In this document: positions 5 to 63,727 of the stretch, piece after piece
Layout of the letters: each line of letters starts with the position of its first letter
How positions within the stretch are numbered: position 1 is the first letter of the stretch
The notes under the pieces: generated by a model
Database searches by the model: none
What the model was told of the DNA's origin: nothing
The model's input: only the letters and a program-made list of their open reading frames with translations
Made by a program: the position numbers and the translations under genes
From: Tribonema minus
Taxonomy: Eukaryota; Sar; Xanthophyceae; Tribonematales; Tribonemataceae
Reading direction: 5' to 3'
NCBI GenBank assembly: GCA_017506865.1
Contig: JAFCMP010000062.1
Coordinates: forward strand, 62,001-126,000
Length of the DNA stretch: 64,000 nt

Positions 5-480
5 TTGGGCTACGCGAACGCGGTGCAAGACGTCGATGGAGAGGATGTGGATCTAGGTTTTTGACCCTCGCCTTAGTTTGACCACTTGCCTGGAGCCTGA
101 CCTCCTCGCTTTCAGGTCCTGGGTTACGTAAAGGCGGTGCAAGACATTGTGGCGGAGGATGCGAGCCCCAACGCAGACCTGGCCATAGCCCGCGACCCTG
201 TCCCTAATCTCCATCCCCCTTACTCAAGCTGTTACCCAAACTCGTTCTTCTTCGTCACACGGCGTAAGCCTTGCTCGCGTTCCCCATTGCATTTTCCTCG
301 ATCTCCATACACGAAGGCCGCGCAAGACGTCGTTGCAGAGGACGTTGACCCCAACCCAGACCTGACCCCTACCCCGCAACCGTAGCCCTCATCTCAACCC
401 CCCAACCCTAACCCCACACCACTTTTCCAGATCCTGGGGTACGCGAAGGCGGTGCAGGACGCCGTTGCGGAGGATCTGGA
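5..480 (+). repeat. Four decayed copies of the 5' edge of chorismate synthase exon 594-719
   Basis: Copies begin near 5, 116, 311 and 431, and the intact exon starts at 594. Each holds the segment coding GYxKAVQDxVAED; the copies at 116 and 431 also keep the CAG acceptor in front. After the conserved 40-50 bases they diverge or meet stops. They sit in the upstream intron, so they act as potential decoy acceptors. Confidence 0.85.
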
Positions 481-593
481 CCTAACCTAATCCCAAAACC
501 TATCCCAACCCAGACGTGACCCCTTGCCCGCAACCGTAGCAGCCTTGAAGTCAACTTCCTGACCGTAACCCTAACCCTACACTACTTGTTCAG

Positions 594-2484
594 GTCCTGG
601 GGTACGTGAAGGCGGTGCAAGACGTGGTTGCGGAGGATGTGGACCCCAACACCTTTACGAGGGACCAGGTGGAGGACAGCCTGGTGCGGTGTCCCCAGCC
701 GGATGCCTCCAACGCGATGGTGAGCACTGACTTGCTGAGCATCATCGATGAGCACTCATAGGCAGTCATTGCTGAGCGCTGCTTCATATCGGGCGGAGGG
801 GGGGGGGTATGTAGCCCAGCCGGACGCCTCCGACGCCATGGTGAGCGCTGACTTGCTGAGCATCATCGATGAGCACTCGCCGGCAAAAATTATTGGTGAG
901 CGCTGCTTCATACCATTTGGTGGTGCGGTGTCCCCAAACATTGTGGAATCCGCCGTATCACAGTACTTTCATGATGTGACTGTATGTATACCTACATAGA
1001 AGTACCTTTTTTCCAGCTATGGTGTTACCGCATGAGCGCCCTCTGTGACGGCCGCATGCTGATCATCACCACCAGGTTTAGTGCATCAACACTGTCTGCT
1101 GTCAAACTGTCGCAGCATGCGCTGAGCAATGTGCTGTCAGTGGAAGCTGACATGGTGTCCTCTAGCTGTACGCGTATTTTGACCGCGCAGACTCACACAC
1201 ACGTGAATTGACCATATGCGCACTGATTCTCACCGCATCGACACTGCCTGCTGTGAAACTGTCGCAACATTTACTGAGCATTTCGCTATTAGTGACAGCT
1301 GACCAGGTCATGGTGTCCTCTAGCTGTATGCATGTTTTGCCCACACACACTCAGACACACATATGACTTTACCGTACGCGCACTGACTCCCACCACTACC
1401 AGAGCGCATGCTCTGACCACACACTCTCTGTAACTGCCGCATGCTGATCATCACCACCACCATCAGATTGAGCGCATCGACGCCATCCGCAAGACGGGCA
1501 ACTCCATCGGCGGCGTGGTGGAGTGCGTCGCGCGCAATGTGCCGGTCAGTCAACGTCAATATATAAAGTTGAAGTTGAAGTTCATGTGCCAAGTTTGTCA
1601 CTTAATCTCTCTTTACTTGGTCTCGCTTCAGGCACGCGCAACGTGCCGGTGAGTCAACTTCAATTTATGAAATTGATTATGAAATTGAAGTTGAAGCTCG
1701 TATGCCAAGTTTGTCGCTCGAGCTCTCCTTACTTGGTCTCGCTTGGCGCACGCAAAGACTGAGATGATGAACATCGCGCTTCCTGCAGCAGATGTCGATG
1801 TTTTGGTTCAAAATCACGCTACCTATCACCAATGATATAATTGCACGTATATATGTGGTCTGTGCTGCTGCTGCACTTGTGTGTCTCGTCATCAGAGTTC
1901 GTATTCATGAGTCATTCTGTCGGAAGACTATTCACATCGCACAAGCTATGCAATTTTCAGATGCATCTGCTGATGAAAAACGGATGAAAAACGGTCGTTG
2001 AGTACATTAATGTAAGACGGTAATCAATGTGTGTGATTGGTCAACGCGATGCGGGGCATGCGAATCTAGTTGCACGCAATCATACTTTTGCTTTTTGTTC
2101 ATGTAGTAGCGCTTGCTCTTCGGCATAACTCCATTGATTGTCTTGAAATCACATGCATTCCACAGCGCCAGCAAGGCTGCTGCACACAAGCAGGGCATGC
2201 ATTTGGCAGAAGGCGTGCAAATACAACGCCTGTGTGTGTTTGTCTTCAAGAAGCAAAATGCTTCGAGTCATGCACCACTCACTCCAACTGCCGCGTAACT
2301 CATTGGCCTCATCTTACGCTCGCTGCTGCTGCTGCTGCTGCTGCTACTCCCGCTGCTGCTGCCGCCACTGCCGCCGCCGCCGCCGCTGCTGCCGTCGCTG
2401 CTGCTGCTGCTGGTGCTCACTCCACTTGATGAATCTGATGTACCACGCTTGTCTCACGCACACTGCTGCTTCCGCCGCCGCCGC

Positions 2485-2516
<32 letters not shown>

Positions 2517-5500
2517 ATCACTGCTGCAGTCTGGCCTGGGGTCACCTGTGTTTGACAAGCTGGAGGCGGACCTGGCCAAGGCCTGCATGAGCTTGCCAGC
2601 CAGCAAGGGATTCGAGGTACATTGATCCCCAATCAAACCGTAAGAATAGTGCAACCCTAAATTCATCTTGAACTTAACGTGCACGAGGCAACCCGCTGGT
2701 CGGGCTATGCGTGCGCCCAAGCCGTTGTGCGACGCCACCGTCATTCAAGGCGTAGCCCGTGATCTTGGCCAAGCATGCATGAGCTTGCCAGCCAACAAGG
2801 GATTCGAGGTTCGTTGATGCCACATAAAACCCCAACTTCAAATTCAATTTGACGGCTAGGGGTAAATTACCCTCACTGTAATCTGAGCGAGGAGCGTCTG
2901 TCCTCAGCTTGCGCTCTGCTCTGCCTGCAACAACTGCACCTGTTGCTTGCCAGGAGGGCATATTGCATCAACACAAGCTTAATTACGACCCTTACCTCAT
3001 CTAGCATTGCAATGGCTTGGTGTTCCACATCTCCGATGATCACATTCGTGCCTATCGCTCCAGTCAGGACATGCTGACACGCATGAGAAACGGGTTCGTG
3101 TTTTTGTCTCTAACCCTAACCCTAAGCCCCTAACCCTAACACACAGGAGGGCATCTCGCATCAACACAAGGCAATCACGACCCTCTCGTGCTCTAGCGAT
3201 GCAATGGTTTTGTCCTGTGCATGTGTGCATCTCCGATGATTACGTACATGCCTACAGCTCCGGTCAGCACGTGCGAAAACGCATGAGAAACGGGTTTGTG
3301 TCTCTTAAAGCGCGACGCGCATTCCGCATGCTCACACCACTTCCTCAGGATTAGGGGTAGGATGGGGTCAGGTGTGCCCTGAAGCCGAAACGCATGAGAA
3401 TAGGGTGTGCATCTCGGGGTCATGCAGCGCGCAATGCACACTTTTCGCACGCTCACACACCTTCCTTAGGGTTAGGAGCAGGGTTAGGGTTAGGTGCCCT
3501 GGCCTCGTCATGTCTAGTAAACAGAGCAACGCACACGCGCTCCAGGGTCAGGGCTAAGGTTAGGGTGGGGAATTAGGGTTAGGGTTGGGGCAGGGATTAA
3601 GAGTAAGGTAGGGTGAACCTTCAGTACCTTCCCTGTCGCGCATGAATGACTGTTTTGTTGGATGCAGAGAGCGCAGCGCAAGGGCAAGTATGTATGCCTG
3701 CACTACGGGGTCGCTGTCCGTCACAAACGCGTTGATGAACACCCGCAGAATGATAAGTGTTGCTGCACATGTTTGCACAGGTCACTGGTAAGGACCAGTG
3801 GCCTCATCAGAGTTAGCGCCCATGCCGGACAGCTGCCAGGGCCTCTTTTGCTGATGCTGGCCCTGATCGTGTACCAAACGGTCTATTGTATATCAAGCCG
3901 TCGATATGTCTGCCTGCTGCGCCCGTACCTGACTTTGCGGATGGGACTGCTGCGCTAACCCTAACGCTAACCCTCACCTTGCAATTATGCGCTTGGGGTT
4001 TGGACTGAGTCTTGCTCAAAGCGCGGGTGAAGGTGCCTCAGGCTCTAAACAGTGCTGCTGCCTGCTGCAATTCATTTTGAACTTCAATAGGTCGGCAGCG
4101 GCTTTGCGGGGACACTGCTCACGGGGCGCCAGCACAACGACGAGTTCTACATTGACGAGGATGGTGCGTCGCCTTTGAAGTACATGTTGAAGTGTATGTT
4201 GAAGTTGGTACTGAAGCGGGTTTGAAATTTGTCGCTATTCTTCAGCAGGGTACATGAAGTGGTTGCTGCCAACGATGACCTCACCGCCCAGGCCATACAA
4301 GTAAGTTGCGTCTTCAGTGGCGCACTCTTCTTGATTGCCGTGCCGCATACTATGCCGCAACTGCTTCTCGCATATCTTAGGGTTCGTGTTAGGTCAGGAC
4401 AGGGTCTATCGGTAGCCCATCCTGAAAGCACTGTGTTGTACATGACTACGTCATGACTATGTGGAACACCCAGATGCAGTACCTCTGAAATTGCCATCTC
4501 CGCATACCTCTGCTCGTTACCAATCCCAAAGTATTTGCTCACTCTGTGCCTACCTGTTCTCTCCGTATCCCTACCTGCTCTCCTTGTACAAACGTGTATC
4601 GTGCTTCTCTCCTTGCCCTGCTCTCCCTACACCTGTTCTGTTCTTCAGATCCCCACTGCTTTCCCATGCACCTTCATTTCCAGCTCTGTGCATCACCTGC
4701 CTGCCCTTCATACATCTGCCTGCCTGCTCTCTTTATACCTTGCCTGCTTTCAAAATACGTACCCAATGTCATCATACATAGATACCTGTCATGTTCCCTG
4801 TACCTACCTGCCCACATGCGCATGCGCACGCACGCTTGAGCCGCGCCACCTCATACCTGCATACCCTGTCATGTTCTTTATACGTACCTGCTTGCACGCA
4901 GGCCGTACGCATACGTGCGCGATTCGCTCCCGCTCATAGAAGTACATGCATACCCTGTCGTATTTCTAATACTTCGAAGTACCTACCTGCCCGCATGCAA
5001 GCCGCACGTGAACACGCACGAACCGCTCCACCTCATAGAACGCTACGGATAGCTCGTGCTAAACAACCTGGAGCCGTTATGTCGCCGCATGGATTGGTTC
5101 AAAACCCGCTCATCACCTTCTGCACTACGCGCATTCAAGAGCGCTGTCACTAGCTGCTGAACCTCTGTGTTGGGCTGCCGGCTGGAGCTGGCCTACCGAA
5201 CACGTGAGACCTGTCCATACTGAACACCCATGCCTCGAACGCTAAAAAGCTTGCGCACAGAAGTCTTTTTGCCTACTGTGGTTATGGTGGCACTGTTTGA
5301 CTTGTGGCCAATGACTGCAGCAGCGGCGACCACGGTTATTGGTGGGAGGCACTTGCGGCTAACCATCCCTTGTCACCTAGAGCTCAACGATCTTTTTGAT
5401 TCGTTCTTCATACATACCCTGGCATGTTCCTTATACGTACCTGCCCGCATGCAGGCCGCATGCGCACGCGCACAAATCGCTCCAGCTCGTACATACATAC

Positions 5501-8036
5501 CCCATTGTGCTCCAGCTCATACATACCTACCCTGTCGTGTTCCAAATACCTACCTGCCCGCACGCAGGCCGCACGCGCACGAACCTCTCTAGCTCGTACA
5601 TACATATCTGCTCCAGCTCATACATACGTATCTGTCGTGTTCCCAATACCTACCTGCCCACATACAGGCCGCACTCGCACGCGCACCAACCGCTCCGGTG
5701 GCATCCAGGGAGGCATCAGCAATGGCGAGACTATCATCATTCGCGTGGCGTTCAAGCCCACGAGCACCATCGGGCAGGAGCAGGAGACGGTGAGTGGCAG
5801 TTACATTTGTAGAAACCATGTGTTGTACTGCAAGAATGTCATCATTTGCGTGGCGTTCAAGCCCATTAGCACCAGAGGGCAGAAGCAGGAGACGGTGAGC
5901 ACCAGTTGCGCTTCATGAAACCGCCATCATACATATTTTCAAAGTTGACACTTTGGCTGTTCACACAGGACATCATCGTCATCGCGTGGGACAATGTTCG
6001 TATTGCGAAGGTGGTGTTGCTGAATGACGCTGCTGCAGAATGTGCGAGCAGAATTCTGGTTTTTGCAGCAGCCAGCCGTCTAGCTTCTAAGAAAGGCACA
6101 CACTTCCATGACATACACCATATACGTACATCAACATGATTGACTCAGGCTGCCATGCTCCACATGGCATACTTTTTACGGGTCATGACCCTCCCAGTTC
6201 AGTCAACGAGGAGGTGCGGCTGTCGTCATATCAGGGGTGCCGTAGTGTTGTGATGTTTAGCGTGCTGCAGCGTTATATGGGTAGCCTTGAACACCGTCTA
6301 ACCTAAGCCAAGATGGCCTTCATTATGTGGGCCTGTTTGCGCCCTCTGAGAGAAAGAACACACTCTACGGAGCTCCTTCTACGCGCTGTCATTCAGTCGC
6401 TTAGGATTTGGGTTAGGATTAGGGATAGCTGCTGCGCACTGCCATGCAACACACGCGGCTGTGCCCTTTCTCTAGTGTTTTTGTCAATGCTCGCACACAC
6501 CATGAGGCAAATGTCTACCGCCTGGGCTGTACTCCGCGCCAGAAGTAGACATGCACAACCAGCAGGCCAAAGCCAACTTGCGTACTGCCAAAGAAGTGTT
6601 CAGCACAATTTTTTGTAACTGCCAGCATGCAATGGCACTGAGCCTGTACATGACGGCTGAATCTGCCATCAGCCTCCAACTCTCTATGCGGCGACTGACG
6701 CTTTTGCTGCTGGTGCTGTGGGGACGTGTGACCCTGTGGCGGCAGGTGACGCGGGAGGGGGTGGAGACCAAGATGCGTGGAAAGGGGCGGCACGACCCCT
6801 GCGTGCTGCCGCGCGCTGTGCCCATGGTGAGCGCTGCACAAGTTGAAGTATTGCTTGAAGCTATCGAAATGGGCACCTGTGTAGCGTAACTTCCGAGTAC
6901 CGCCTCACTTGAAGAATTTATTGAGGTGGTTTTTCCCAGCAGTGAAGCAATTTTCTTGCGTGCTGCCGCGCGCGAGCGCTGTACAAGTCGAAGTATCGCT
7001 TGAAGCTAACTGCGGATGGGCACCAGTGTGCTCGTATGCCAGCAATTTTTCTGAATGTGTCACTTTCGAGTACCCCACCTCACTTGTAACTTTGAAGTAG
7101 TAGTTGTTGAGGTGATTTGATGTGAGTGAAGCGGTTTTTCTGCGTGCTGCAGCGCGCGCTGTGAGCGCTGCACAAGTTGAAGTATTGGATTGAAGTTCGT
7201 ACAGTTGCAGTAGACCTACAGTGTCCTTTTGTTTGTACGCAAGTGTGGATCATTGGCGGTCTGCGCAGTGAATGTTGCGCAGCAGCACTGCAAAACCCCT
7301 GCTTGCTGCCACACCAGCGCCCACTGATGAGCGTGCTGCAGTTGAAGTAGCACTTCAAGTGAAATTTGCCGATTGTTTGCAACTGTCCACGCAAGCATCA
7401 TAACAGTTCAAACTGTTGCTTATCCTCTCCACTCGGCTGTATTCTTGTCGGCCGTGTCTGTTACTACAGCAGCTCAAACCATTGCTTATCCGCTCCACCC
7501 GCAATTTGTCGGCCGAGCCCTTGTCGGCTGTGTCCGTTACTTTCTGCAACCTGGTGGAGGTCATGATGGCGCTCGTCCTTACGGCTGCCATGGCGCACGC
7601 CGCGCAGTGCCAGCTGTTCCCCTTCAAACTGATTCAATCAAATTATTGACTCCAACACTTGGCTCGTACTCAATCAGGTGGCCATGATGGCGCTCGTCCT
7701 CGATTCAATTGACTCATTGACTTATTCACTCACTGACTTGACTCATCGACTCGTACTCATTCAGGTGGAGGCCATGATGGCGCTCGTCCTCGTGGACGCC
7801 CTCATGACGCGCGCCAATTCTTCTTATCCAATTGACTCAATGATTCGTTGACTTGACTCACTGACTTGCCTCATTGACTTGCCCTCATTCAGGTTGAGGC
7901 CATGATGGCGCTTGTCCTTGCGGACGCTCTCATGGCGCACGCCGCGCAGTGCCAGCTCTTCCCTGCGGGAGCCCTCGACAGCGTCGACGCAAACCCCCTG
8001 GGCAAGAAGCTCGAGGGGCTGGGGGCCTCCGTTTAG
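594..8036 (+). CDS. Chorismate synthase, C-terminal seven exons (5' part lies before the window)
   Basis: Last enzyme of the shikimate pathway; it converts 5-enolpyruvylshikimate 3-phosphate to chorismate using reduced FMN, in plastids of plants and algae. Exons read as 594-719, 1467-1544, 2530-2616, 4091-4163, 5668-5789, 6746-6826 and 7893-8036. Their phases agree throughout and they give 236 codons ending in TAG. Conserved family blocks appear in order: [57 protein letters not shown] then [45 protein letters not shown] and [16 protein letters not shown]. The family is usually about 360-430 residues, so the N-terminal third (transit peptide and first FMN-site residues) lies to the left. The splice donors seen are GT. 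Every intron carries decayed copies of neighbouring exon edges. The join is inferred from phase and family conservation. Confidence 0.93.
812..925 (+). repeat. Decayed copy of the 3' edge of exon 594-719 with its donor
   Basis: The stretch around 690-790 (end of the exon, its GTGAGC donor and about 60 bases of intron) is repeated here. The copy carries the codons for PDASDAM, a GTGAGC donor and the shared downstream text about GACTTGCTGAGCATCATC. It lies just downstream of the true exon. Confidence 0.85.
1047..1300 (+). repeat. Partial copies of the 5' edge of exon 1467-1544
   Basis: Two diverged copies, around 1047-1110 and 1210-1290, resemble the sequence around the acceptor at 1461-1466 and the exon start (GCATGCTGATCATCACCACC and the ATTGAGCGCATCGACGCC-like part). 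They are mixed with a local duplication of about 180 bases. Confidence 0.6.
1632..1746 (+). repeat. Tandem copy of the 3' edge of exon 1467-1544 plus intron
   Basis: The bases 1528-1631 (last codons for ARNVP, donor GTCAGT and the intron up to TTACTTGGTCTCGCTT) recur immediately as 1632-1746, with codons for ARNVP and donor GTGAGT. It is a clean head-to-tail duplication whose unit starts inside the exon. Confidence 0.88.
2318..2516 (+). repeat. CTG/CCG trinucleotide-rich stretches in a chorismate synthase intron
   Basis: Runs of CTG, CCG and GCC repeats at about 2318-2345, 2358-2412 and 2470-2516 lead into the CTGCAG acceptor of the exon at 2530. The open frames for poly-Cys, poly-Ala or poly-Ser here are a by-product of the repeats and are not called as genes. 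Confidence 0.8.
2751..2812 (+). repeat. Decayed copy of the 3' edge of exon 2530-2616
   Basis: Bases 2762-2808 repeat the end of the exon (codons for [13 protein letters not shown] in one frame), followed by a GT at 2809 as in the true donor. The copy lies in the downstream intron and is clearly diverged before 2762. Confidence 0.82.
4804..5605 (+). repeat. Array of copies of the 5' edge of exon 5668-5789
   Basis: The text TACCTGCCCGCATGCAG followed by a start resembling GCCGCACGCGCACGCGC and then AACCGCTCC recurs near 4804, 4880, 4990, 5445 and 5553. The functional copy has its acceptor at 5665-5667. Each carries the intron end, an AG and 25-35 bases of exon (TRTNRS). Copies are about 75-110 bases apart, apart from the gap that holds the dispersed repeat at 5291. 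Confidence 0.85.
5291..5407 (+). mobile_element. Dispersed short repeat, copy 1 (SINE- or MITE-like)
   Basis: About 120 bases shared with 13197-13322 (same strand) and 53477-53600 (opposite strand). The core is TTTGACTYGTGGCCAATKRC, then GCAGCAGCGGCGACCACGGT, TTGGTGGRAGGC, CACCTAGAGCTC and a TTGATTCGTT end. All three copies sit in introns of different genes. No coding capacity and no poly-A tail are obvious, so the class is open. Confidence 0.75.
5832..5894 (+). repeat. Decayed copy of the 3' edge of exon 5668-5789
   Basis: It repeats the codons for [17 protein letters not shown] with the donor GTGAGC directly after, 105 bases downstream of the true exon end. Compared with the exon it has several substitutions ([16 protein letters not shown] in the true copy). 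Confidence 0.87.
6955..7195 (+). repeat. Two decayed copies of the 3' edge of exon 6746-6826
   Basis: The exon end and following intron (TGCGTGCTGCCGCGCGC, then GAGCGCTG, ACAAGTTGAAGTATTGCTTG) recur at about 6955-7010 and 7138-7195. Both lie downstream of the exon and keep the text around the donor, although the coding part is short. Confidence 0.78.
7553..7812 (+). repeat. Three copies of the 5' edge of the last chorismate synthase exon
   Basis: Copies at 7553-7622, 7677-7705 and 7764-7812 carry codons like VExMMALVLxxAxMxHA, and two have an AG-containing acceptor (TTCAGGTGG). The true exon starts at 7893. The first copy extends to AAQCQLFP, so about 70 bases of exon were copied. They lie in the preceding intron among GACTCATTGACT repeats. 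Confidence 0.88.
7706..7892 (+). repeat. Irregular GACTCATTGACTT repeats before the last exon
   Basis: Variants of TTGACTCATTGACTT occur about ten times between the copied exon edges (for example 7718-7760, 7830-7890). They probably grew together with the exon-edge copies. Confidence 0.7.
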
Positions 8037-9776: not shown

Positions 9777-12700
9777 TCAGTCTGCAGGTTTAAAGATGAA
9801 GTTGGGGTCCCGTGCATACTTGGCTTCAAACCGCGCTATCCACCTGCCGCACAGAAAGATCAAAGTAAACGGCTTCAGCACACTTGGTGGTATGTTGACC
9901 AAACGATTGAGCTGGTGAATGTTCCTCCTTTCTCGTGCTGACAACAAGGTGTTGTCGCCATTGATTGTGTTTGCCAGCACTTACTGAGCGGTGCTTTCGA
10001 CTTACGCTGAGGGCGCAAACGCCAAGATGATTAAAATGCTTTGACGTACCTATGACGCTTGGTACAAGGTGTCTATGCCTTGATGTAAAATCAGACAACG
10101 TTGAAACAAGCTAGGTACTTGAAGCAGGGGTGCTCAACACTCTACCAGCTGAAGTACAACATGCCATTTGGCGGCGGCGGCGTTGGAGTGGTTGTCATTG
10201 AGATAATTTCAGACTGTCACACGACATAGCGATTCCATACAACAAGGTTCAAGTTCGGTGCCATTAATCTGGGCTTTTTCGCGACTTGAGCGAGAATTCA
10301 TAAAAAGTACAACAAGTACTTCAAAGTACGTAGGAACCGCAACCACAGAACTTCACATGCCTTCCAGATAGCAAACATCAGGCAGCAATCAATGCCACTT
10401 GTGGCTGTCTGCAAATGCTCACCTGTCGTGCAAGTTGGCAGGTAACCACAACGTCTCAAGCGCTTTGTGCCCTTTTTGTGCGCGTGTTGCCGGCGCGTTG
10501 AGCGCATTATGTACATCGACCCAGGGCTGCAATTCAATGTATAATTCAAGTATGTATGCATGAATTTGAAAGGATATCTCGCATTGATACCAGAGAGCAA
10601 CTGCGAAGTAGTGGCCAATAAGGTTCAGCCAATGAGGCTCCTTAATGTACATTATAGCCCAATGAGGTTCGTTATTGTAGCCAATGAGGTTTCTTACCTA
10701 TCCAGCACGTTAGCAGGCGCTACCAGCAGCTCCTGTTCGCCTGTGTTCTGCGTCGTGCTGAAGGACGATATGAAGCGGAACAGATCACGCGCTACCTGTC
10801 ACAATGGCAGCACGAAACGACGCAGACGCCATAACAAGTTCAACAAATACTTGAAGTAGAAAACTTGGTGTGCGAATATAGTGTGCCTGTGTTTTGCGTC
10901 TTGCTGAGGAAGAGAGGAAGCGGAAAGAGATCACGTGCCACCTGTCACGATGGCAGCACATACCAACACCATGATAATATGAGGTCAACACAATACAACA
11001 CTTCAACAAGCTCAGAAAACTTCAACAAGCCCAGTGGAAGTGAATTGGTTTTACAGCTGTCCACGCCATGCGCCTTGTACATTCTGCTAAACCTTTGTGT
11101 CAAACACCAACTATGATGGCAGCATGAAGCGACGCAGACGCCGTGATAAGTTCAATAAATAGAGCACTTCAGCAAATTATTGTGCGCGCGTTGTGCGTCG
11201 TGCTGAAGGGTGATATGAAGCGGAAGAGATCGCGCGCCACCTGTAACGATGGCGGCACGAAACAACGCCATGATGATATGAGTTCAACACAATGCAAAAT
11301 GTTTCGCCGATTTGCCCGTTCTGCAACATGCCATAGTAAGCATGTTATGCGCGCCTGCTGAAGCTCTGCAGCAGAAATGAGCCAGCTTTTGTTATCACAG
11401 GCACCCGCCCGTTACTCAGGCTGCTAAGTTTGCATGGGGACTGAGCTAGTATTTTTCGGCACATGCCCTCACTCGTTGTGCATGATGCTCAACAGTAACA
11501 CAGTTGCTTGCTGCGTCCTCTCCCCTGTTGCCGGGTGCGGTGTTTTTGCCTGGTTCGCTTGACAGATGGCTCACTTGAGAGTCCCACAGAAACCGCGCAC
11601 CAACTGATGCCCGCCCATGCTGTACTTCTTTGAAGTTCAAGAGCAGCAGCGCTCGTGCAGCACAGCGACAATGTCCACGCACCCATACTTCAAGGTGAAC
11701 TTCACCAGCGCCCAGCTACAAGACTTACAGGAACTGCGCACCAGCTAGTAATGCCCCCCCCATGCAGGGTGTGCTGCACTTCATGAAACTTCAAGAGCAG
11801 CAGCGCTCACCTGCAGTGCCGGCTGAAGCACAGCGACAATGTACATGTCCGATCCACGCACCCATACTTCAAGGTGAAACTTCAATGTGAACTTCACCAG
11901 CGCCCAGCTGGAATTGCCTGATGGCAGAAGAGTGGTACATACATGCAGTGACAGGCGAGCTGTACAGATGCACACACCACCTGGAGCTGGCATTGAGCTT
12001 CAACATTAGATTCAACTTCAGTTCAACTTCAACTGCAGAGAAGCACCGTTCTCCGTTGCAGCCCCTGCCCTCCCCTCAGGCGCTGAGGCCATCTGATCTT
12101 GAACCTGATGAACTTGAAGTTGATGAAGTTGAACCTGCTGACTTGATGTTGCCCCTTGATGTAAGCAGTACACCCCCCCTCCCCCCCCCCCCGCAGCCCC
12201 CTCTAAGCCACTGTGAGGCGGTCTGAGCTCTGAACTGTCCACATAGAATTAACGGTCACAGTCCAGCCACAGGCCCTGTTGTTGTCTACTTCAAGGTGAA
12301 GTACCTGCAGTGCAAAGAAGCGCCGGTCGCCGTCTCGAGAGCCAGCTGCCTTGAGATTGTTGATGGTGTCCAGGCTCTCAATGGACACGCCCAATTGCAC
12401 CATGGGACATTGCTGCAACGCGCAACAAATTCAAAAGGAATATGTGACAAATTGTTTAGAGACAGCAACAGAATGGAGAGGTATATGAGCTGCAGCTTGC
12501 CGGGTTGCTCGAAGCAGTCAAAAATAGTCATCGCACACGAGGTAAGTTACTTGGGCATACCCCTGTGATGTACATAGGGTTACGGTTAACCCTACCAACT
12601 AATTTTAAACCCAACACACGAGCCGCAGTACTGCCATCAGACAATTACTCAAGTCCTTGCAGAGGCCAGAACTGCCATCCAGCGGTAGCGCTACACAAAC

Positions 12701-14316: not shown

Positions 14317-14335
14317 CTGCTCGGTAAGAGAAGTA

Positions 14336-43958: not shown

Positions 43959-43963
43959 GGTGA

Positions 43964-50070: not shown

Positions 50071-53000
50071 AAGATGTCCTTCAACTGTGCAGCGCTTGAA
50101 GTGCGTGCATGTACGCACCTTGAACAGGCGCGTTTGACGGCGCAAGCGACGGCGCGTTGGACGGCGCATCAGACGGTGCTGTAGAAGGCGCAAAGGTGCC
50201 TGCCTCGCACTGTAGCTTCACCTGCTGCCCCCACGAGTCAAACCTGCGGGCACACCAGCGTTACACAAGAAGGGATCGCTAAGCACACGTCTGCATGTAT
50301 ACCTGCAAGGCCACCAGCGTTGCACTAGAAGGAATGCTGAGTATGTGGCTGTGCAAGGGAAGTAACAATGAGCCGTGGCTGGCCATGCATTATGCAGAGC
50401 GAGAGAGAGCAACGCAATCATGAAGTCTAAGACTTTGAGTGGCGCGATGTTGCTTTGATTGCCGTATCGCTGGGAACTTCCAGGGGAAGCAAGCTCATCT
50501 TGATGGAGAGGCGAGTTACGGAGCCCTGCCTCACAACGCCATATTAAAGCGCGACAGCGCTCTGCAGTCATCACCATTCACATACCTACATACCCACATG
50601 GCCATGCGTGCGTGAGTGCCACGCACATCATCATCAACCAACAGTGAGCGTCTCGGCGGGCACGAGCTGACGAGCTCTGCTGCACGCAAGGGCGTGGCGC
50701 CGGCGCCCAACGCGCACGTGCTTGCTGAGCGTTGTTTGCTGCTGGATGAGTGCTGCTGCAAAGCGTTTAAACGCCACTGCCTGAGCAGTGCTACAAGCAC
50801 CCGCACAGGCCCGATTGGTGCCCGTTTGCTGCGTGCCCAGCTCCTGTGAAAGTGCTGAACGCTCGTGATAGCAAGCGATGTTCATACTCAATACCCACCC
50901 AGTCCCCGGCAATTGAGCTAGGGTACGCAAGTACCGCCTCAATTCTCAATGTACCACTCTGAGCACTGCTGCAGTGCTGCTGCAATGCTTGTGTGCCTGT
51001 GCCTGCCTCCTTGTCATTCGCACATAAGTGCATCGCAATTCTGTTGAGAAGTCTTGAGCCGGCATTGTGAGGGATGGTGTTCCTCATTGAGAGGGTTACT
51101 AACGTGTTGTCGCAACCTTGCGTGCCTGCGTCAGTTGTGAGGGTGCTCGCTGTTGACCTCCATGTGAACCATACCGCAAGTACGGCGCCTTCAATATGGG
51201 ACTCTCCCCCTGCATGTAAACCTCATCTGCAGTACACCACCGTCGATATGTTCTTCGATTTGAGACACTCCCCCTCCAAATAAGCCTCCACCTGCAGTAC
51301 ACCAACTTCAATGCGAGACACCCCCCTTACCTGCAGTACAGCAACTCGAGATGAGACTCTACCCCTCCATGTGGTCGCACTCGGTACACCAACTTCAATA
51401 TGAACTTCAATGTCAGACTCTCCGCCCGTCCACGATGTATATCTCACCTGCAGTACAGCAACTTCGATATGAGCCTCTCCCCCTCCACAAAACCTCACCT
51501 GCAGTACACCAAGTTCAATATAAACGTCAATACGAGACTCTCCCCCCTCACCTGCAGTACAGCAACTTCGAGATGAGACTCTCCCCCTCCATGTAGTCAG
51601 CGCACGCGGGCTCCCCCTTGAAGTCTATCTCGTCCCACCAGTTTGTCAGAAGGTCGCAGTCAGCGGCCTTGAGGCTGGGCTTTGGTGGTATGTCGCCCTT
51701 TTTCAGGCACAGGCTGCACACGTCGTCTGCCTTGCACGCTAGCCACTCCTTGCCGCACACCTACACGCAGAAAGAAAGAAGAGTTTTCGCATGAAGCGCA
51801 ATGTTGAGTTTGCGTTTCAACGGCAACAAGCCAGTCTTTTTCAGATTGTAGCGCGCCTCTGTGAGCGTGGTGCAGCTGTTGTCAATCTCTGTGAGTGTGG
51901 CCCATAATGTTCTTAGGGTTAGGCCTAACCCTAACCCTAACCCTAACCCTAACCAAAAATCAAATCAGAGCCCGACGGCGACTGTTGCTGCCGCAGCATG
52001 CCGAGTGAGACCTCAATAACTTTACTTCGGCGGATGTACCTTCCACAAATACATAGATGGTTGCTGAGGAGAAAAGACAACAGGACGTTTTGACGTGTCG
52101 CCATCAACTTACACACACACAATGCTGAAAAGCGCGAAATGACATCACCATGCCGCGTCTCCCCTTCCAGCGTCATCCAGCCTACTTCATCTACTGTACG
52201 CCAGTTACTGAACTTCAACTACTGCGCCCGAGGCGTGTGCTACAGCAAGGGGGCACGCACGTGCGCGTCTGTGAGCCCGCGAATTGAGCGCTGATGCGTT
52301 CAAAAATGCATCTGAGCACAGCTGCAAGAATGCACATGAACCTTTTGTTTCTTGCTGCTGACGCACAGCACTCCCGACCGCGCCAGCTCGTGGCACTGTA
52401 CCTGAAGTACTGCCGCGCTGTGCATGCACTACTGCCGTGCTCTAGCTCTCCCTGACATGCGCCAGCTCATGGATACACAAATATGCAGTGCAGCAGCTTT
52501 TCATTGTTCGGCCGCTGCCTTAGGGTTTAGAGTTAGGGTTAAGGTTAGGGTTAGTTTGTAACACTCCCACCACACTGGCTCAACCACTACTGCAACTCTT
52601 TCTCACCTCAACAGGCAGAAGCTCTGCCATCAGGCCCCCAAACCTGGCTGCATCATACACTTCAACCACTACTGTAACTGTTGTCTCACCTTGATAGGCA
52701 GAACATCGCCAAAAGACGGGTGGCAACCCCAAATCCTGGCCGCATCCTACTTCAACCACTACCGCAACTCTTTCTCACCTTCACAGGCAGAATCTCGCTG
52801 CATCATACTTCAACTGCTGCTTCAACTCTTTCTCACCTTGACAGGCAGAATTTCGTTGCATCATACTTCAACCACTACTTCAACTCTGTCTCACCTTGAC
52901 AGGCAGAATCTCGCCATCAGGCCCCACCAGAGGCGGCTCTGTGGCAGGGGGGTCCTTGGCAGGAGGGTCCACTGCTGGCTTCCCTGCGGCAGGCTTCCCT

Positions 53001-55499: not shown

Positions 55500-55744
55500 G
55501 CTGCTGCTGCTGCATTTGCTGACACAAGGCGGCGACCTACGCACGCGTCGGCGTAGACTGCTGCTGCTGGTGGTGATGGTAGCTGCTGCTGCTGCTGCTA
55601 AGGCCAGGCGACCTATGACGCATCGGCATAGACTGCTGCTGCTGGTGTTGATGGTAGCGCTGCTGCTGCTGCTGCAGCTGCTGAGGCAAGGCGGCGACCT
55701 ACGCACGCATCGGCATAGACTGCTGCTGCTGGTGGTGGTGATAG

Positions 55745-55780
<36 letters not shown>

Positions 55781-56030
55781 GGCTGCTGCCGCTGCTGCTG
55801 CTGCTGCGCCATCGGAGGCATGCCATAGCCGGCATGCCTCTCCGAGTCACCCTGCGCTTCCCACTGGCCGCTGTGTCCCGAACCCCCCAGGTGGTCACCG
55901 CTGTCCCCCGAGTTTTCCCCATCTACCTCCTCAACGACAGGCAGAGCATGGGATGCCACAGGGGACGGGGGGTGGCTGCGGGGCGTGCCCGCCTGCTGCT
56001 GCTTGTGCGGCGGGGATGTGCTGGCCGCGA
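55500..56030 (-). CDS. Gln-rich exon of the coiled-coil gene or a copy of it (copy 1)
   Basis: On the minus strand, after an acceptor AG near 56028, the frame reads SPPHKQQQAGTPRSHPPSPV, then VVEEVDGENSGDSGDHLGGS, then GYGMPPMAQQ and a long Gln run from CAG repeats, ending HHHQQQQSMPMRA with TAG at 55699-55701 overlapping a GTAGGT donor. Past that the Gln/His part is repeated twice more (to about 55541). It is a low-complexity, hydrophilic segment, likely the end of the coiled-coil protein coded upstream. The same exon appears at 59020-58711. Which copy is used is unknown. Confidence 0.5.
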
Positions 56031-56560
56031 TTGGGGAGCCTGAAGGTCGAGAGGAGTGGTGGAAGTGGTGCGATAGTGAGCGCAGTGCTGGTGTGCAAGA
56101 CGGTGCAAAATCAAGCGCAGTGATAAGTGGTGTTTGAGAGAGCATGTGCCTGTGCGCAGCGCTGCGCAATGCTTGTGCGAGGGGGACGTGCTCACTGCAA
56201 TTGGGGAGCCTGAAGGACGAGAGATGTTGTGAAGGTGGTGCGATAGTGAGCGCGGTGCTGGTGTGCGAGACGGTGCCGAAGAACAAGCGCAGTGATGAAG
56301 ATTGGTGCTCGAGTGAGCGTGGTGCCTGTGTGCAGCGCTGTGCAATCATTGTCCGGCGGGGACGTGCTGACTGCGATTATGGTCAGCCTGAAGGGCGAGA
56401 GAAGTGATGAAGTTGGTGCGATAGTGAGCATGGTGCTGGTGTGCGAGACAGTGCTGCATAACAAGCGTAGTGATGAGAGTTGGTTTCGAAGCAAGCGGTG
56501 CCTGTAAGCAGCTGTGCAGTCGTCATTTGGCGCCTCACCGGCACCGCTGTGCAATCGTCA
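56014..56560 (-). repeat. Three or more units of about 170 bases
   Basis: Units starting near 56014, 56189 and 56362 share GGGGACGTGCTSRCTGCGAT, TTGGGGAGCCTGAAGG, GGTGCGATAGTGAGCGYGG and GCTGGTGTGCGAGACGGTGC. On the minus strand each has an AG acceptor then CACRTCCCCGCCG, that is the 5' edge of the Gln-rich exon, upstream of it. Copy 2 of the large duplication has about two and a half units (59020-59360). Confidence 0.85.
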
Positions 56561-57515
56561 TTTGGCGCCTCTGCAGAACAGGAACTCATAGGTGCATCGA
56601 GCAAAACAGTTGTGCGAACTATATATACATCGGTAGACCGCGAACCATCTGCAAGTTTGGCCCGCTTGGTCATACTAAGGATCAGGGTTTGAGATAGCTA
56701 CCAGACTGAGTGAACCTTGCCCTAACCTCCCCATCTGACAATGCAGCTTGAGTGACCGCCTGCATATCTTTTGCATTTATAAATACGTGTCCACCTCTTT
56801 TGGCTTGAGTGCACTTCAAAGTGAACTGGGCAGCAAGCGAGCGCGGCAATCTGCGCCCCACTGGCCTTTGGAAGAGTGCAATAAGGCTCCATTTCAATGC
56901 CATCAAGGTTGTCCATGAGAAGCATCTGCGTACAAGCACCCTTCCACTCTCAGCTCGCAAGGGACAGTATATCGAGCACTGCGTGCAGCAGCTCATCAGC
57001 TCGTCTGTAATGGTTGTCCACATGTTCCTGTGTGCGTGTGAGTATGGCTCCGAGATGCTAAACACAGCTTCGCGGTTGTGCCGAGAAGCTAAAAGCCTTG
57101 TGCACCAACTTCTGGGGAAGTTCTCCCGCTCGTGATGGTGTGCCATATTGTGATACTACATAGCCTTTGAACGGGGAGTAGCGCTGCAGAATGAGATCCT
57201 TCTCTTCTGTGTCTCATAGGGAAAGCGCACAATGAGACCGCAACGGCTTACCGAGCGGAGTCGCTTGCACCCTGCTACTTAGACTCGGTTCCTGCCATGC
57301 ATGTGCTTTATGACACATACTTTGAAGACATTGGATTATGCATGTCAACATGCGCAGTGCGCACAGACAGGTCATTGGCTTTGAGCAAGAAAGCGCAAGC
57401 AAGACAAACTCCAAAGAATATTGGCGTGATTGAGATTGTGACTCGCCTGGTGGAGTCACTTGCAAGCCAGCAGCCTCGAGTCTGGCGTATTCGTGCGAAA
57501 GCACCGAACTCTCAC

Positions 57516-57597
57516 CTGCCCACCGCAAGCTCCAAGCCCCACAGTCAGCCGCAAGAGCCAGCAGCACCAGCGATGCCACTGCGCGTCGCATCGCCAT
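57516..57597 (-). pseudogene. Second copy of the signal-peptide exon, frameshifted
   Basis: Codes MAMRRAVASLVLLALAADCG like 54527-54444 but lacks two bases (CG) before the donor, so the frame is lost at the junction. It has the same upstream sequence. It may be transcribed but cannot make the same secreted protein. Confidence 0.85.
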
Positions 57598-58710
57598 CCT
57601 CTTTGGTGATCGCTGGGCCTGTGCTGCTGCGGGGCAAAAGAGTATGCCGCATAATCAATCCAACGATGCCTCCACGGGGTAACCCACCGGATAAAGCAAA
57701 TAACCATGTTCTTGCTTTTAAAGCAGCCCAAAAGTTTAACATTGTTGAGCACTGTGATCTCCACGATGACCGGACCGAGTAGAGTCTTGTCCATACGATG
57801 GGCATAAAATACAAACAAAACTCACGTGTGCCGCATATGCAAGTGTGCCACATATGCAACCCTATGACGCGTGGATAACCCACCGACCCCCTCTAACCCT
57901 AGGTGAATAGCCCTAATGATGCGGCTGCGGCAATGCACTCTTGAAGCTCAAGCCCCACGTACAGCACAGCACGGATGCACTGCATGCACTTCATATGTCC
58001 ACTATTGTAGCATAAAATCCATCATTTGCTGAAATTGGGCTCGCAAATGATACGCATTAGCATCTGCCATGCTGCTGTACATGCAAGCAATAGTGCGAGA
58101 CCAAGTGCGTCGCGTTGCCACAGCAAAATACAAGTGTGGGGCTGAAAAGAGAAGCGGCTTGGGCACATTTACGCTGCAGGCTGCCTTTGTGGCACATGCA
58201 TCACAGCACACAACCACCAAGAAACTAGTGTGTATGTATGCTGGAGGCAGCGGACGAAAAACCACACATGTGGCCTTCTGTTACTATTTGATGTTTGCCT
58301 CAAGCGCAGCGCCCTGTGCCAGCCGCCCTTCACGTGTGAAGGCCGGATGTGTATGCTGCAGGGGAGATTGACAGCAGCTTGCTCCCGCTGAAGCTGTACG
58401 CCAAGAACAGTTCACGACAGTCCTAAACCATGGGCTGAGAGTAGGCTGACAGCACTGCTGCAACCATCTGGCTAGCCACTGCTGCTGCCATTGCTGACAA
58501 TGGCGGCGGTAGTGATGGTGCACCACAACAGCCCCGCTCCCTCCCCCAGCCCAGAACCACGCACAGAAATCGCTTCTCCTGCTGCTGCTGCAGTTGCTGC
58601 AGTTGCTGACGTAAGGGAACTAAGCAGGCATAGACTGCTGATGGTGGTGGTTGGTGGTGGTAGCGGTGCTGCTGCTGTTGCTGCTGCAGCTGCTGACGCA
58701 AGGCAGCGGC

Positions 58711-58764
58711 TCAAGCACGCATCGGCATCGACTGCTGATGCTGCTGCTGGTGGTGGTGGTAGCG

Positions 58765-58809
<45 letters not shown>

Positions 58810-59020
58810 CTGCGCCATCGGAGGCATGCCATAGCTGGCACGCCCCTCTGTGTCACCCTGCGCTTCCCACTGGCCGCTGTGTCCCGAACCCCCCAGGTGG
58901 TCACCGCTGTCACCCGAGTTCTCCCCATCCACTTCTTCAACGACGGGCAGAGCGTGGGATGCCACAGGGGAGGGGGGGTGGCTGCGGGGGGTGCCGGTCT
59001 GCTGCTGCTTGTGCGGGGGG
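58711..59020 (-). CDS. Gln-rich exon, copy 2
   Basis: Second copy of the exon at 56030-55500: SPPHKQQQTGTPRSHPPSPV, VVEEVDGENSGDSGDHLGGS, GMPPMAQQHQQQQ and a Gln run, ending SMPMRA. It is nearer to the upstream coiled-coil exons than copy 1 and so is the more likely one to be spliced, but the phase of the join to exon 60053-59967 does not fit directly; another exon must lie between. Confidence 0.5.
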
Positions 59021-59966
59021 GACGTACTGACAACGATTGGGGAGCCTGAAGGACGAGAGAAGTTGTGAAAGTGGTGCGATAGTGAGCGCGGCGCCGGAGT
59101 GCAGGACGTGCAAGCGCAGTGATGAAATTTGGTGCCTAAGTGAGTGTGGTGCCTGTGTGCAGCGCTGTGCAATGCTTGTGCGGCGGGGACGTGCTGACGG
59201 CGATTGGTCAGCCTGAAGGGCGAGAGAAGTGATGACGTTGGTGTGGAAGTGAGCGCGGTGCCGGTGTGCGAGACGGTGCCGAAGAACAAGCGCAGTGATG
59301 AAAGGTGGTTGTGAAGGAAGCCGTGCCTGTGAGCAGCGCTGCGCAGCTGTCATGTGCCGCACCTGCACGACAGAAACACATGACTGCATCAAGTAAAACA
59401 GTTACAATGCCGGCACTGCGTGCGGCAGCTGATCAGCTCGCTTTTGATGGTTGGTTGTGCGTGTACTTCTTGTGTGCGTGTCAGGATAGCTCCAAGATGG
59501 TAAAACGGCTGCCCAGTTCTGCCAATGAGCCGGAACCCATTTGCACCAACTGCCAGGGGGGGAAGTTCTCCCCCTTGTGGTAATGTGCCGTGTCGTAATA
59601 TGTACCACAACGGAGTAAGTAGCCTTCGAGAGGGGGATAGCACTCCAGCATGAGATCCTTCTCTTCTGTGCCTCAGAAGGAGGCAGCGCAAAGCGCCCGC
59701 AGCGGCTTCCCAACTCCCCAAGCGGAGTCGCTTGCACCCTGCTACCTGGGCTCGGTGCCTGCCATGCATGTGCTTTATCACACATGCTTCGGAGCCTTGA
59801 TTGATTCATGTCACCATGATTGTAATTCACGTCCACATGATTTATTCAAGTCAAAGTTCGCCGTCCGCAGAGACAGGTCATTGCGTTCAGCAAGAAAGCG
59901 CAAGCAAGGCAGACTCCAGAAAGAATATTGGCCTTGACTAGATCGCGACTCACCTGGAGGAGTCAC

Positions 59967-62900
59967 TTGCAAGCCAGCAGCCTCGAGTCTGGCTCGAAGG
60001 CGCTCTGTCTCGTTCTCCTGTTCCTCGAGTTGCTGATGCAGCTCCTCTACATCCTGCTCGTCATAATAGCAGAACGATCAGCAGGTTGCATGAGGTGAGG
60101 ACCCAGCTAACAAAGCACTCAGCAGGATTATGTAAAGTCACTACACTGACGTTTCCCGCAAGTGCCAGCACCGGAGCATGTTAAGTTGCACAAGTAAGAG
60201 CACTTGTTGCATTGGGGCAAACGGAATCGTGTGTCATTTCACAGCTCACCCAGAGGATGAAAGCTTCCCCCATTGAAGTACGTGCCTCAAACACTTCGGT
60301 AACTTCAGTTCTCCCGAGGTATAAGTACCAGAACAAAGCTGTCAACAAATACCGCACGCACACTTATCATGTTATGTTCAGCTCCACAGCTCATCGAAAT
60401 AATGAACAGCACCCCATAGAAGGACGTATGCATTCGGAAAACTTATCCCCGGGTGCCGGCAGCACAGCGGACTGCACCATCAGGCATGCGCACGGTCCAT
60501 CTCGATCAATAGGATCTTCGTCAACACACAACTCTAACTGATGGGAGTTTCCCCATGTGCCTCAGAGCGAGACTGCATACGTGACAAACACGTGCTGCAT
60601 GCGTGCGATCGACTTCGATCCACTGCTCATCCACTCCCACAGAACTTCAGTGTGCGGGATTTCTGCCTCCGAGCAAGTTTTGTACACTTCAATGTCAGGT
60701 ATAAACTACGGTTGTCCCGCATGCGCGCGATCAAGTCCAAGAGACTGCGCATCCACTTCCTCTGACTGCTCCAGGATTACACTTGTGCCCAGCAACATGG
60801 GTGAGGTAGCAGTGTTGGCATTCGTACACTGATACCTCTGAATTTCAGAATGACATTTTGAAATAGCAACAACTCTGAACTTCATCACAACGTACCGCGT
60901 GCGCGCGATCAAGTTCAAGAGTCTGCGCATCCAGCTCCTCCGACTGCTCCATCAGCAATCGCACAAGCCGCTGCAGCTTGGATTCAGTGTCAGCGTCACC
61001 GTTGTTGCCATCACCGGCAACAGCAATCTGTGGGCGCAGGGGAGTTACAGTTACAGGCAGTTGTAGGCATACTGAAACCGCTTGCGTGGACTACAATGGC
61101 AAAGTTGTAAAAGACTTTTGAGGCCTGTAGTAGTATGCTGAGAAGTACAAAAACACGCTATAGGCCACATGCACTTGATTCTCAGTGTCACGCTATTGCC
61201 GTCGCCAGCGACAGCAACCTGTGGGCACACAACAGTCACACAACAGCTCAAACAAACCGCTTGTGTGGGCTTCATGACATCCTTGTCCGGAGTTTGAAGC
61301 CTGCAATAGCAAGCTGAGAAGTGCAACAATACATCATACGCCATGGGGACTTGAGTATCGATTGCACCGCCGTTGCCATCGCCAGCAATAACACGACCTG
61401 TGGACGCTGCTAACCCTAACCCTAAGTCACACACACGCAGCTAGTTCAACACGATTGCGTGCACCATCTGTACAGAGCTCAATTACACTTTCGTGCGTGT
61501 GAATTGCTGCTGCACAGACTTGTAGAACACTGCCAAGTACAGTGATACTTTGTATGCCAGATGCGATTGCGCATGGAAGTCTCCCTCCTCACCATTGCCG
61601 GCAATGGTGACCTGTGCATGCCATGGCAAAAGTAGAGAAAAGGTTGAAGTTCTTACTTGGCAGCATTCAAAGATTGCTTTGCGACACCAGAGGACTGTGA
61701 AGTGTTCTATACAGTACAGGGCCAGAAACAAGCTCTGATGGTTAAACGGGCACAGGTTCACATCTTGCTCTTGGCCAAAAACTACATTCAAAGCATCATA
61801 TGAGCAGCTTTGGGGCTGTCCAATGCACTGCAGGAGCTGGGAACAGGGGTGGAGATGGTCAGGCATTCATGCTCGCTTCAGCACGCATTGTTACAGTCGA
61901 CAGCTTGATCCACCCATGGGAGGCGAAACTACGACAACAGGTGTATTGCTCTCTGGCGCATGAATGATGTGGCGTGCTTGCACAGTGTCGCCACATGCAC
62001 GAAGCACTGTTTCTTGCTACATCCATCACTCGGAACATGGAATTGCGGTGGCAGTAGTATTTGCCATCTGTTGGGGCGAGCAAGTAATCCCAAATTGCGA
62101 TACATACATACCATCCTGTGTCCATGCAGTGCATTATATCATCTTGCGCAGCACTCCCTGCGTCCACCGGCACTCTGCTTAGAATCCTAGCCCCGACCCT
62201 AGCCCTAGATATTGTGTCCAATGGCGCCCTGGCGTAAAACTTAACCCTAGACCTAATCCTGCTCCATAGTACATGCATGCGTACATGCTCATACTCCGTG
62301 CTCTCTGCATCCAACAATACAGTCATTGATGCGCGACAGGAAAGGTACCGAAGGTCAATCCTACACACCTTGCCCCTAATCCTAACCCTAAACCCTCACC
62401 CTACCCTAACCCTCACCCTAAACCTAACCCTAAGCAGTCTGGCTCACCTCAAGCTGGTGCATGAGCTGCAATCGCGAGCTGTCGCTATGCGGTCCGTCGC
62501 CTATGACGCCTGCCGGTGCCACAGTGAGGGTTAGGGTTACAGCGTTGCAGAGCGCGTTGAGTCAAACGCCCATACTGTTTCTCAGAGGCGTTTTGAGAAA
62601 GGCGCAGGCATCGTGATATGAGGCTGCCTAGCCATGAGACAGTGATAACCAGCACCTGTCACGGGAAGTTTCACGTGGCTGTTGCCGACAGTTGTAATGC
62701 AAAGCGCCAACATGTAAACCAGAAGCAGTGAGACAACATGCAATATATCTCTTGCCATCGGGGGGCTCAAGTGGCGGTTGTGACGCGCGTTTGCATGGTG
62801 CATCTTGCACGCCCCAAGCAAAATCACTGCAATCCGCTTTTTGTAGCACATGTATGGAGAAAGATGTATTGACAAGAGCGGACGCACAATAGGTGCAGCG

Positions 62901-63727
62901 TATTTGCAGACAGTGAGCACCAGATGTCCATCTGCACATGAACGCAGGCCACAGGTGCTTGCTCGCCATCATTCAAAACCACTCTTTGCAATGTATCAGC
63001 AGCGTAGACGCAAGGAGCATATATGACCGCAACTACGCACTGGCCAGCAGTTTCACACACATTCAACATCTATATTGAAACTTCAAGTGGAGCGTCACAC
63101 CTGAGTTGTGCTCCAATTGGTGCTCGCGCAGCGCCTGAACGGCCGCCACCTGCCATCATATCACATGTGTCACAACAGCCGCAGCAACAGTATCAGCACA
63201 CCAATGAAAGTCACGTGAACTGCCACCTGTCTTATTGCCAGCCTCTGACAGTAATGTGCCACCAATTGAGCCTCACCCTAATCCTAATCCTGACCGTAAC
63301 CCTAACCATCCCTATATGGAGGTGCAGCGCATAAAACCACAGTGGGTTGACAAGTAGCAAAGAGGCTGCAGCGCAGGTGTTGGCAGCCGCTTTGCACGCT
63401 TTGGCTGTCGCAACAGTCGCCGCACTGATTACTTTCGGCGAACTGCGCAACAAAGAGTGAGTGGAGTTCATCATGAAGAGCATCGCAATCAGCACAGGGG
63501 TCACACCATTCACACCATGTCTTCAGGCACGTGCCGTGCAGTGAACCCATAGAGTGCAGCTATTCAGAAGCAGTGTGCGCCGCATGTAACGATGAAGACA
63601 TCCATGGTTTGGCAGAACAGATTGAATATACTTCAAGTACTTGAAGTACACACCTACTACAAGTACTTGAAGTACACACCTGAACCCCGAGCTCGCGCCT
63701 TAGGCTGCCATTCTCCTCCACGAGGAG
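59967..63727 (-). CDS. Coiled-coil protein, partial gene
   Basis: Minus-strand exons: 63727-63680 (LLVEENGSLRRELGVQ), 62509-62448 (VIGDGPHSDSSRLQLMHQLE), 61027-60896 (IAVAGDGNNGDADTESKLQR, LVRLLMEQSEELDAQTLELD, RAHA) and 60053-59967 (DVEELHQQLEEQENETERLR, ARLEAAGLQ). Heptad-like Leu/Ala spacing in all of them predicts a long coiled coil; no other domain is visible. The last three join without phase conflict; at least one exon is missing between the first two. The Gln-rich exon at 59020-58711 or 56030-55500 may be its C-terminal part. The gene starts beyond the right edge of the window or in an exon not found. It could be a cytoskeletal, centriolar or tethering protein; nothing decides. Confidence 0.6.
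60705..60790 (-). repeat. Copy of the 3' edge of exon 61027-60896
   Basis: On the minus strand it reads LEQSEEVDAQSLGLDRAHA, a changed copy of LMEQSEELDAQTLELDRAHA, downstream of the exon. The donor is altered (GGGACAAC). Confidence 0.88.
61188..61625 (-). repeat. Three copies of the 5' edge of exon 61027-60896
   Basis: Near 61190-61222, 61365-61398 and 61590-61615 the minus strand has CACAG or CAG followed by a version of ATTGCTGTTGCCGGTGATGG with CAA and ACTGA-like text. The intron sequence upstream of each (GTGTTTGTACTTCTCAGC, CATATGGCG-type pieces) is also shared. Confidence 0.85.
62360..62440. repeat. Degenerate telomere-like array
   Basis: CCCTAATCCTAACCCTAAAC, CCTCACCCTACCCTAACCCT and CACCCTAAACCTAACCCTAA in a row, next to exon 62509-62448. 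Other short arrays lie near 395-415, 565-580, 3105-3140, 3470-3600, 3955-3975, 13665-13705, 30380-30405, 47638-47665, 48357-48373, 52520-52552, 61412-61424, 62525-62540 and 63278-63305. Confidence 0.9.
63630..63679 (-). repeat. Short copy of the donor side of exon 63727-63680
   Basis: AAGTACTTGAAGTACACACC occurs twice in a row (plus strand), each containing the reverse complement of the GTGTGTACTTC donor region. The copied unit is about 28 bases and does not reach far into the exon. Confidence 0.7.

Follow-up and report, generated by a model that had tools for sequence, protein, structure and literature searches.

Decayed tandem copies of exon edges in introns of the xanthophycean alga Tribonema minus

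The stretch of DNA analysed here, referred to as the window, comprises 64 kilobases (kb) of contig JAFCMP010000062.1 (positions 62,001 to 126,000, assembly GCA_017506865.1) of Tribonema minus, out of an assembly of 158 megabases. The introns of its predicted genes contain diverged copies of the adjoining exon edges, many of them with their splice signal, and we call such copies echoes. Echoes of an acceptor edge consist of intron tail, AG and exon start and lie upstream of their exon, whereas echoes of a donor edge consist of exon end and donor and lie downstream. These structures were noticed in an initial annotation, which gave nine pairs of positions and one row of copies as examples and proposed a fixed polarity, a link to splice junctions and an occurrence throughout the genome. 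Here we describe the echoes of the window, compare them with those of an independent sample of kinesin genes, and weigh how they may have arisen.

Echoes in the window

Self-alignment of the window (blastn, at least 40 bits, copies at most 3 kb apart) gave 99 direct and 2 inverted local alignments, with overlapping alignments and some simple-repeat alignments counted among them. None was obtained in any of three first-order Markov shuffles of the window. Repeat pairs spaced by less than about 50 bases are concealed by blastn; indeed, a 51-base pair seen by a tandem repeat finder was absent from the self-alignment, so short units are undercounted. All nine pairs and the row at 51.2-51.6 kb proved to be direct local repeats. 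On realignment six of the nine clearly exceeded a null set of 274 random pairs (maximum 29), and for the remaining three the evidence is the self-alignment. Exon edges were taken from a gene finder trained on the kinesins of this genome (in-sample base sensitivity about 0.87-0.91, precision 0.84-0.88). It sets edges exactly at 594, 1544, 5789, 7893, 14154 and 14316, so that six of the nine copies can be read as copies of exon edges; no edge was set at 31615, 32521 or 61027, and the exonic nature of these three is unconfirmed. Further predicted edges bearing echoes, beyond the named pairs, lie at 719, 2616, 5668, 6826 and 10795 (gene finder and self-alignment).

Both edges of the predicted functional exon 594-719 (forward strand) are duplicated. 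Four decayed echoes of its acceptor edge (about 6-55, 111-172, 313-355 and 350-482), made up of intron tail, AG and exon start, occupy 6-482 and are 80-87% identical to stretches of 504-650; the named pair 431/594 corresponds to 350-482 against 504-645 (113 of 133 positions identical on realignment). An echo of the exon end and donor at 719 (source 694-788) is found at 815-912 with 87% identity in the self-alignment. The intron upstream of edge 594 is also rich in AACCCT. On the same strand, the donor edge of predicted exon 1467-1544 (source 1531-1637) recurs at 1635-1753 with 76% identity (pair 1648/1544) and that of predicted exon 2530-2616 (source 2573-2639) at 2766-2831 with 87% identity, the latter not being one of the initial examples. 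Predicted exon 5668-5789 has an echo of its acceptor edge (source 5522-5681) at 5409-5581 (81.5%) and one of its donor edge (source 5725-5802) at 5830-5907 (pair 5894/5789; 85% in the self-alignment, 66 of 78 on realignment). Two echoes of the donor edge of predicted exon 6746-6826 (source 6799-6882) follow at 6957-7195 (74-81%). The last of these forward-strand edges, the acceptor at 7893, is preceded by a row at 7553-7815 (about 7553-7621, 7663-7702 and 7702-7815), the first and last copies of which are 82.5-86% identical to 7834-7963 (pair 7553/7893; 86% in the self-alignment, 62 of 69 on realignment).

On the reverse strand, exon 14154-14316 has an echo of its donor edge at 13942-14054 (pair 13943/14154; 91% in the self-alignment, 103 of 113 to 14138-14250) and one of its acceptor edge at 14730-14807 (pair 14816/14316; 88.5% in the self-alignment, 69 of 78 to 14247-14324). 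On this strand, predicted exon 10698-10795, again not among the initial examples, has echoes of its acceptor edge at 10885-11297 (76-87% to 10739-10998). The two forward-strand copies at edges unconfirmed by the gene model are located at 31465-31579, upstream of the proposed acceptor 31615 (pair 31491/31615; source 31576-31693, 82%), and at 32604-32687, downstream of the proposed donor 32521 (pair 32690/32521; source 32445-32529, 78%). The weakest of the nine pairs, 61190/61027, is a weak direct repeat at 60990-61403 (60990-61224 against 61182-61403, 68.5%). The row of the initial annotation is a decayed multi-copy array at 51179-51601 (71-83%) with spacings of at least 117 and tandem-repeat periods of 39, 51 and 120.

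Echoes in kinesin genes

As an independent sample we used kinesin genes, the exons of which were set by homology. The first 20 loci contain 101 introns (mean 780 base pairs, bp) and exons of 140 bp on average; 92 introns have a GT donor, giving 184 edges, and the other nine were dropped (eight of their edges bore echoes). Later 17 further loci were added, seven of them joined from overlapping pieces, which brought the total to 37, and 33 of these have usable introns. Exons shorter than 30 bases were dropped together with their introns, as were introns shorter than 250 bases for the window counts. Edges were tested with equal windows of 68 bp at score 46.

Local alignments in 20 kinesin loci were 248 direct and 6 inverted, and one shuffle per locus gave none; together with the shuffles of the window this rules out chance similarity. 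Of the 226 exon edges, 45 have an echo in the neighbouring intron on the side expected from the polarity, and both edge types are hit (donor 22/113, acceptor 23/113). Echoes on the wrong side, in the intron across the exon, were found for 2 of 155 edges. Two violations of the polarity, both in locus L042 at 4268, lie at an exon that is probably mis-called, as its upstream intron has a GC donor. The fixed polarity described for the window is thus borne out on independent genes, and so is an occurrence well beyond it, since at least one edge echo is present in 20 of the 33 kinesin genes. A match in the intron of another gene was seen for 2/226 edges, and of 206 windows placed in intron interiors, 26 are matched by another part of the intron they belong to. 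Echoes also form rows, with 81 echoes over 42 edges and a maximum of five per edge.

The repeat load of intron-containing kinesin loci differs strongly for no visible reason, from none (L047, M268 at C268:51811-57937, M30 at C30:242368-247055, and M550, alias L013) to 30-39% of the locus (L039, L042, L045). The kinesin motor encoded at L012:1501-2286 has its closest matches, by a clear margin, in calmodulin-binding kinesins (1sdm, 3h4s), which are plant KCBP. Together with a guanine-cytosine content of 84% at third codon positions and acceptors of the form GCAG|G, this hints at an algal lineage, green or other, and at nothing more specific.

Units and decay of the copies

Units of 100-120 bp are the most frequent among full-unit pairs, the majority of which measure 60-200 bp (102 pairs, some counted twice in overlapping loci, with short units hidden). 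Four distinct full-unit pairs of at least 95% identity (108, 101, 85 and 60 bp) adjoin to within 2 bases in head-to-tail order, which agrees with the initial proposal that units were duplicated head to tail and that the outermost functional copy survived. Kinesin introns hold two of the four; the third lies near retrotransposon frames, the fourth outside the called part of a gene, and none is at a called junction. The 108-bp pair, a young head-to-tail duplication (98%), occupies 43964-44180 on the forward strand of the window, in the vicinity of retrotransposon-like open reading frames and away from called junctions, an indication that the duplication does not depend on splicing.

Most copies are old and decayed, the median identity of pairs lying wholly in introns being about 79%. 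Mismatches between functional edge and echo at codon positions 1, 2 and 3 number 99/1194, 89/1180 and 191/1174 (about 8, 8 and 16%), and those between echoes 117/802, 113/787 and 156/785 (15, 14 and 20%). This pattern is about what is expected if the echo decays freely and changes in the functional edge are mostly silent. Splice signals are found in many copies, with GT in 34 of 42 donor echoes and AG in 45 of 52 acceptor echoes. Taken together, GT or AG is retained in 79/94 echoes as compared with 1458/1847 for identical dinucleotides in exons (p=0.26), and the spacing of copies modulo 3 is even (14/16/18). As judged from the sequence, there is no sign of echoes being used or purged. The role in alternative splicing envisaged in the initial annotation thus finds no support at this level, the splice sites of echoes decaying like the neighbouring bases and the spacing being free of frame bias.

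Some echoes retain exon and splice site at 93-98% identity beside intron that can hardly be aligned (for example L050 3733-3769 and L043 3528-3593). With detection and filter matched, their share is 10/35 in the observed data and 24-30% in simulation. An apparent anomaly (14/37 vs 4-14%) disappeared under the matched filter, and neither exon-only copying nor selection on echoes is needed for it.

Dispersed repeats were considered as another source. Of all intron bases, 1.45% match another sampled locus, and any such stretch occurs in 13 of 129 introns; a dispersed transposon or introner was accordingly rejected, none being seen within the sample (about 0.2% of the genome). The unlabelled flanks of genes hint at a lower repeat load than in introns, about 3-4% over about 22 kb, a figure added from rounded rows with weak labels and differing genes.

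Origin of the echoes

The echoes are probably relics of neutral local head-to-tail duplications, in which the functional copy is the one joined to the exon body. Local tandem duplications of DNA, whose units mostly measure 60-300 bp within the reach of the method, would strike anywhere in the introns of genes rich in introns. Where such a unit extends across a splice junction, the copy still attached to the body of its exon would remain functional, and the other copy, together with its splice site, would turn intronic and decay neutrally. Fixed polarity would then arise automatically, because function stays with the copy joined to the exon body. The data show the duplication itself, its polarity, a mode of decay in keeping with neutrality and its recurrence from gene to gene. 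We infer that units holding a whole exon or lying within an exon alter the protein and are lost, and that some copies expand into minisatellite-like rows. Echoes of this origin look mostly like neutral debris.

Whether splice junctions are special is a separate matter. Raw coverage by local repeats is flat, 0.17-0.28 within 60 bp of junctions vs 0.25 in mid-intron. A repeat that crosses a junction is visible on one side only, and uniform duplication therefore predicts lower coverage near junctions. The observed ratio of edge to interior frequency at score 46 is 1.95 with ten interior windows per intron (gene bootstrap 1.39-2.72) and 1.58 with two. Exon-masked coverage 6-66 bp from junctions is 0.77 of that in mid-intron (bootstrap 0.61-0.95), or 0.92 when calculated per intron (0.70-1.18) and 0.75 for introns up to 1000 bp. 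These values were compared with a simulation of duplication, decay, small indels (insertions or deletions), deletion and a survival rule, with the same detection as for the real data. Four earlier settings with a burst of duplication gave mean ratios up to 1.10. Over all 24 settings, a ratio of 1.58 was reached in 41/192 replicates and the 2.73 observed at score 70 in 34/192.

Several results weigh against uniform neutral duplication as the full account. Steady-state models gave mean edge/interior ratios of only 0.37-0.58 at score 46. With an older burst the range was 0.63-1.19 in the half of the settings (12 of 24) with the best fit to the interior. In those 12 settings the observed edge frequency was reached in 3/96 replicates, and in none of the 96 with an interior frequency of at most 0.126. 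Simulated means of exon-masked coverage near junctions relative to mid-intron were 0.36-0.55, with single replicates up to 0.85, as against the observed 0.75-0.92. The exon part of the copies exceeds 75 bp at 1/42 edges (3/48 with more genes), as compared with 22-50% in simulations. A count by hand in the window puts 3 of 8 named pairs above this length, and for two of them the edge is unconfirmed by the gene model. The shortage could come from selection acting against long decoy exons or against units with too little intron. In addition, five short exon-edge alignments of at least 95% identity span only part of their spacing and are not full units, and the load is very uneven, 13 of the 33 kinesin genes being without any edge echo.

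The density at junctions is thus partly an observational bias, since only one branch of an exon-copy pair diverges and such copies stay recognisable longer, and partly an excess of roughly 1.5-2 fold over the uniform neutral simulation, an estimate that depends on model settings and comes from one gene family. Of the special link to junctions put forward initially, much comes down to detectability, and this excess is what stands. It may still be that duplication is uniform and that the slower decay of exon copies alone makes junctions look dense, an explanation to which we give somewhat less than an even chance. Decay on one branch rather than two predicts a ratio that rises with the score threshold, as observed (1.38 to 3.65), and the means of burst models come within about 1.5-2 fold of the observation, with the two-window ratio reached in the replicates mentioned above. 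However, the exon-masked excess over simulated means persists, and no replicate of the best settings matches edges and interior together.

The excess over simulated means, in the edge/interior ratio as well as in exon-masked coverage, would also follow if a mutational process targeted junctions through chromatin, co-transcriptional structure or steps in composition. Copies would then arise there at about twice the rate of the rest of the intron, from units that are short in the exon, and introns would grow outward from their edges and fill with spare splice sites. The short exon parts and the rows of up to five echoes per edge point in the same direction. Nevertheless, we regard such targeting as unlikely, as raw coverage is flat from junction to mid-intron, none of the four distinct full units of at least 95% identity lies at a called junction, simulated replicates reach the two-window ratio, and a single gene family was sampled.

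Gene conversion from the functional edge could refresh the echoes, prolong their life and yield an excess at edges by concerted evolution. Rows in which nearly the same exon boundary recurs in every copy speak for it, and concerted evolution is reported for the comparable repeats of lancelets (PMC3087553). The simulation nevertheless reproduces the identity patterns without conversion, which we hold to be quite improbable as the cause. That selection keeps echoes as working alternative or decoy splice sites is very improbable: the copies with exon and splice site at 93-98% beside hardly alignable intron (L050, L043) might suggest it, but such cases are equally common under neutral simulation, the splice sites of echoes erode as the adjacent bases do, the spacing of copies is indifferent to the frame, and differences between echoes are only mildly higher at third positions.

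Relation to known systems

Structures of this kind are already known from lancelets as mirages, and what is new here is the lineage and the number of genes. According to two reports (PMC3087553, PMC3902484), mirages are minisatellites at intron/exon boundaries in a handful of genes (Adh, troponin C and PGBD5 as cited there), with units of 10-72, 60, 108 and 150-160 bp, length differences between haplotypes and undisturbed splicing. The repeats of T. minus resemble mirages as far as described there: they are boundary-spanning tandem direct repeats, head to tail over 5' or 3' exon boundaries, with AG or GT in many copies, the authentic edge retained, and several copies per edge in multi-copy rows. 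Unlike those lancelet examples, the copies are mostly old and decayed, and they were found in 20/33 kinesin genes with usable introns. The literature searched, outside which most subscription papers lie, contained no report of such repeats from algae or protists, nor of a comparable number of affected genes.

A potato gene provides a further parallel (PMC4974935). A tandem duplication over an intron-exon boundary took along the intron tail, the acceptor and the start of the exon, and it gave rise to a new stretch of exon and a new intron; the gene also has a purely intronic duplication of 83 bp. The tandem unit thus carries the same elements as acceptor echoes do, but the duplicate edge described there became spliced, whereas the sequence of the copies in T. 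minus gives no indication of use. In the AGGT model of intron gain by Rogers, as described in the same text (PMC4974935), exon sequence only is duplicated in tandem and the intron is made of exon copies. In-gene tandem duplication yields extra splice sites in that description and in T. minus alike; the units here, in contrast, are made of intron plus exon edge.

Introner elements of unicellular eukaryotes are dispersed families of repeated intron sequence. The repeats described here are local, unlike introners, and with the low matching between sampled loci given above they show no such dispersal.

About one exon edge in five of the sampled kinesin genes bears a decayed copy, in a lineage unrelated to lancelets. 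Tandem duplication thereby adds measurably to intron growth and to the stock of unused splice sites, and the echoes amount to many natural experiments on how the spliceosome chooses among several similar sites.

Other features of the window

Repeats are also found apart from the exon edges. About three copies of a unit of approximately 138 bp lie at 49636-50181 (self-alignment and tandem repeat finder). A large direct duplication at 55650-60000, with a spacing of about 2.4-2.9 kb, joins parts of 55659-57486 with parts of 58584-59993 at 72-84% identity and holds smaller tandem repeats. Short internal runs of telomere-like CCCTAA/TTAGGG were detected by the tandem repeat finder at 51924-51954, 52520-52553 and 62374-62433.

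The retrotransposon-like frames extend over 43105-46247. RNase H domains of reverse transcriptases are encoded at 43105-43644, and the frame at 45060-46247 has 10 relatives in the protein collection, three of them with an integrase domain. No RNA families or tRNAs were found in the window. In the wider assembly, kinase matches with identical or near-identical scores occur on contigs C90/C179 and C144/C223/C278, as if two haplotypes or recent duplicates were represented.

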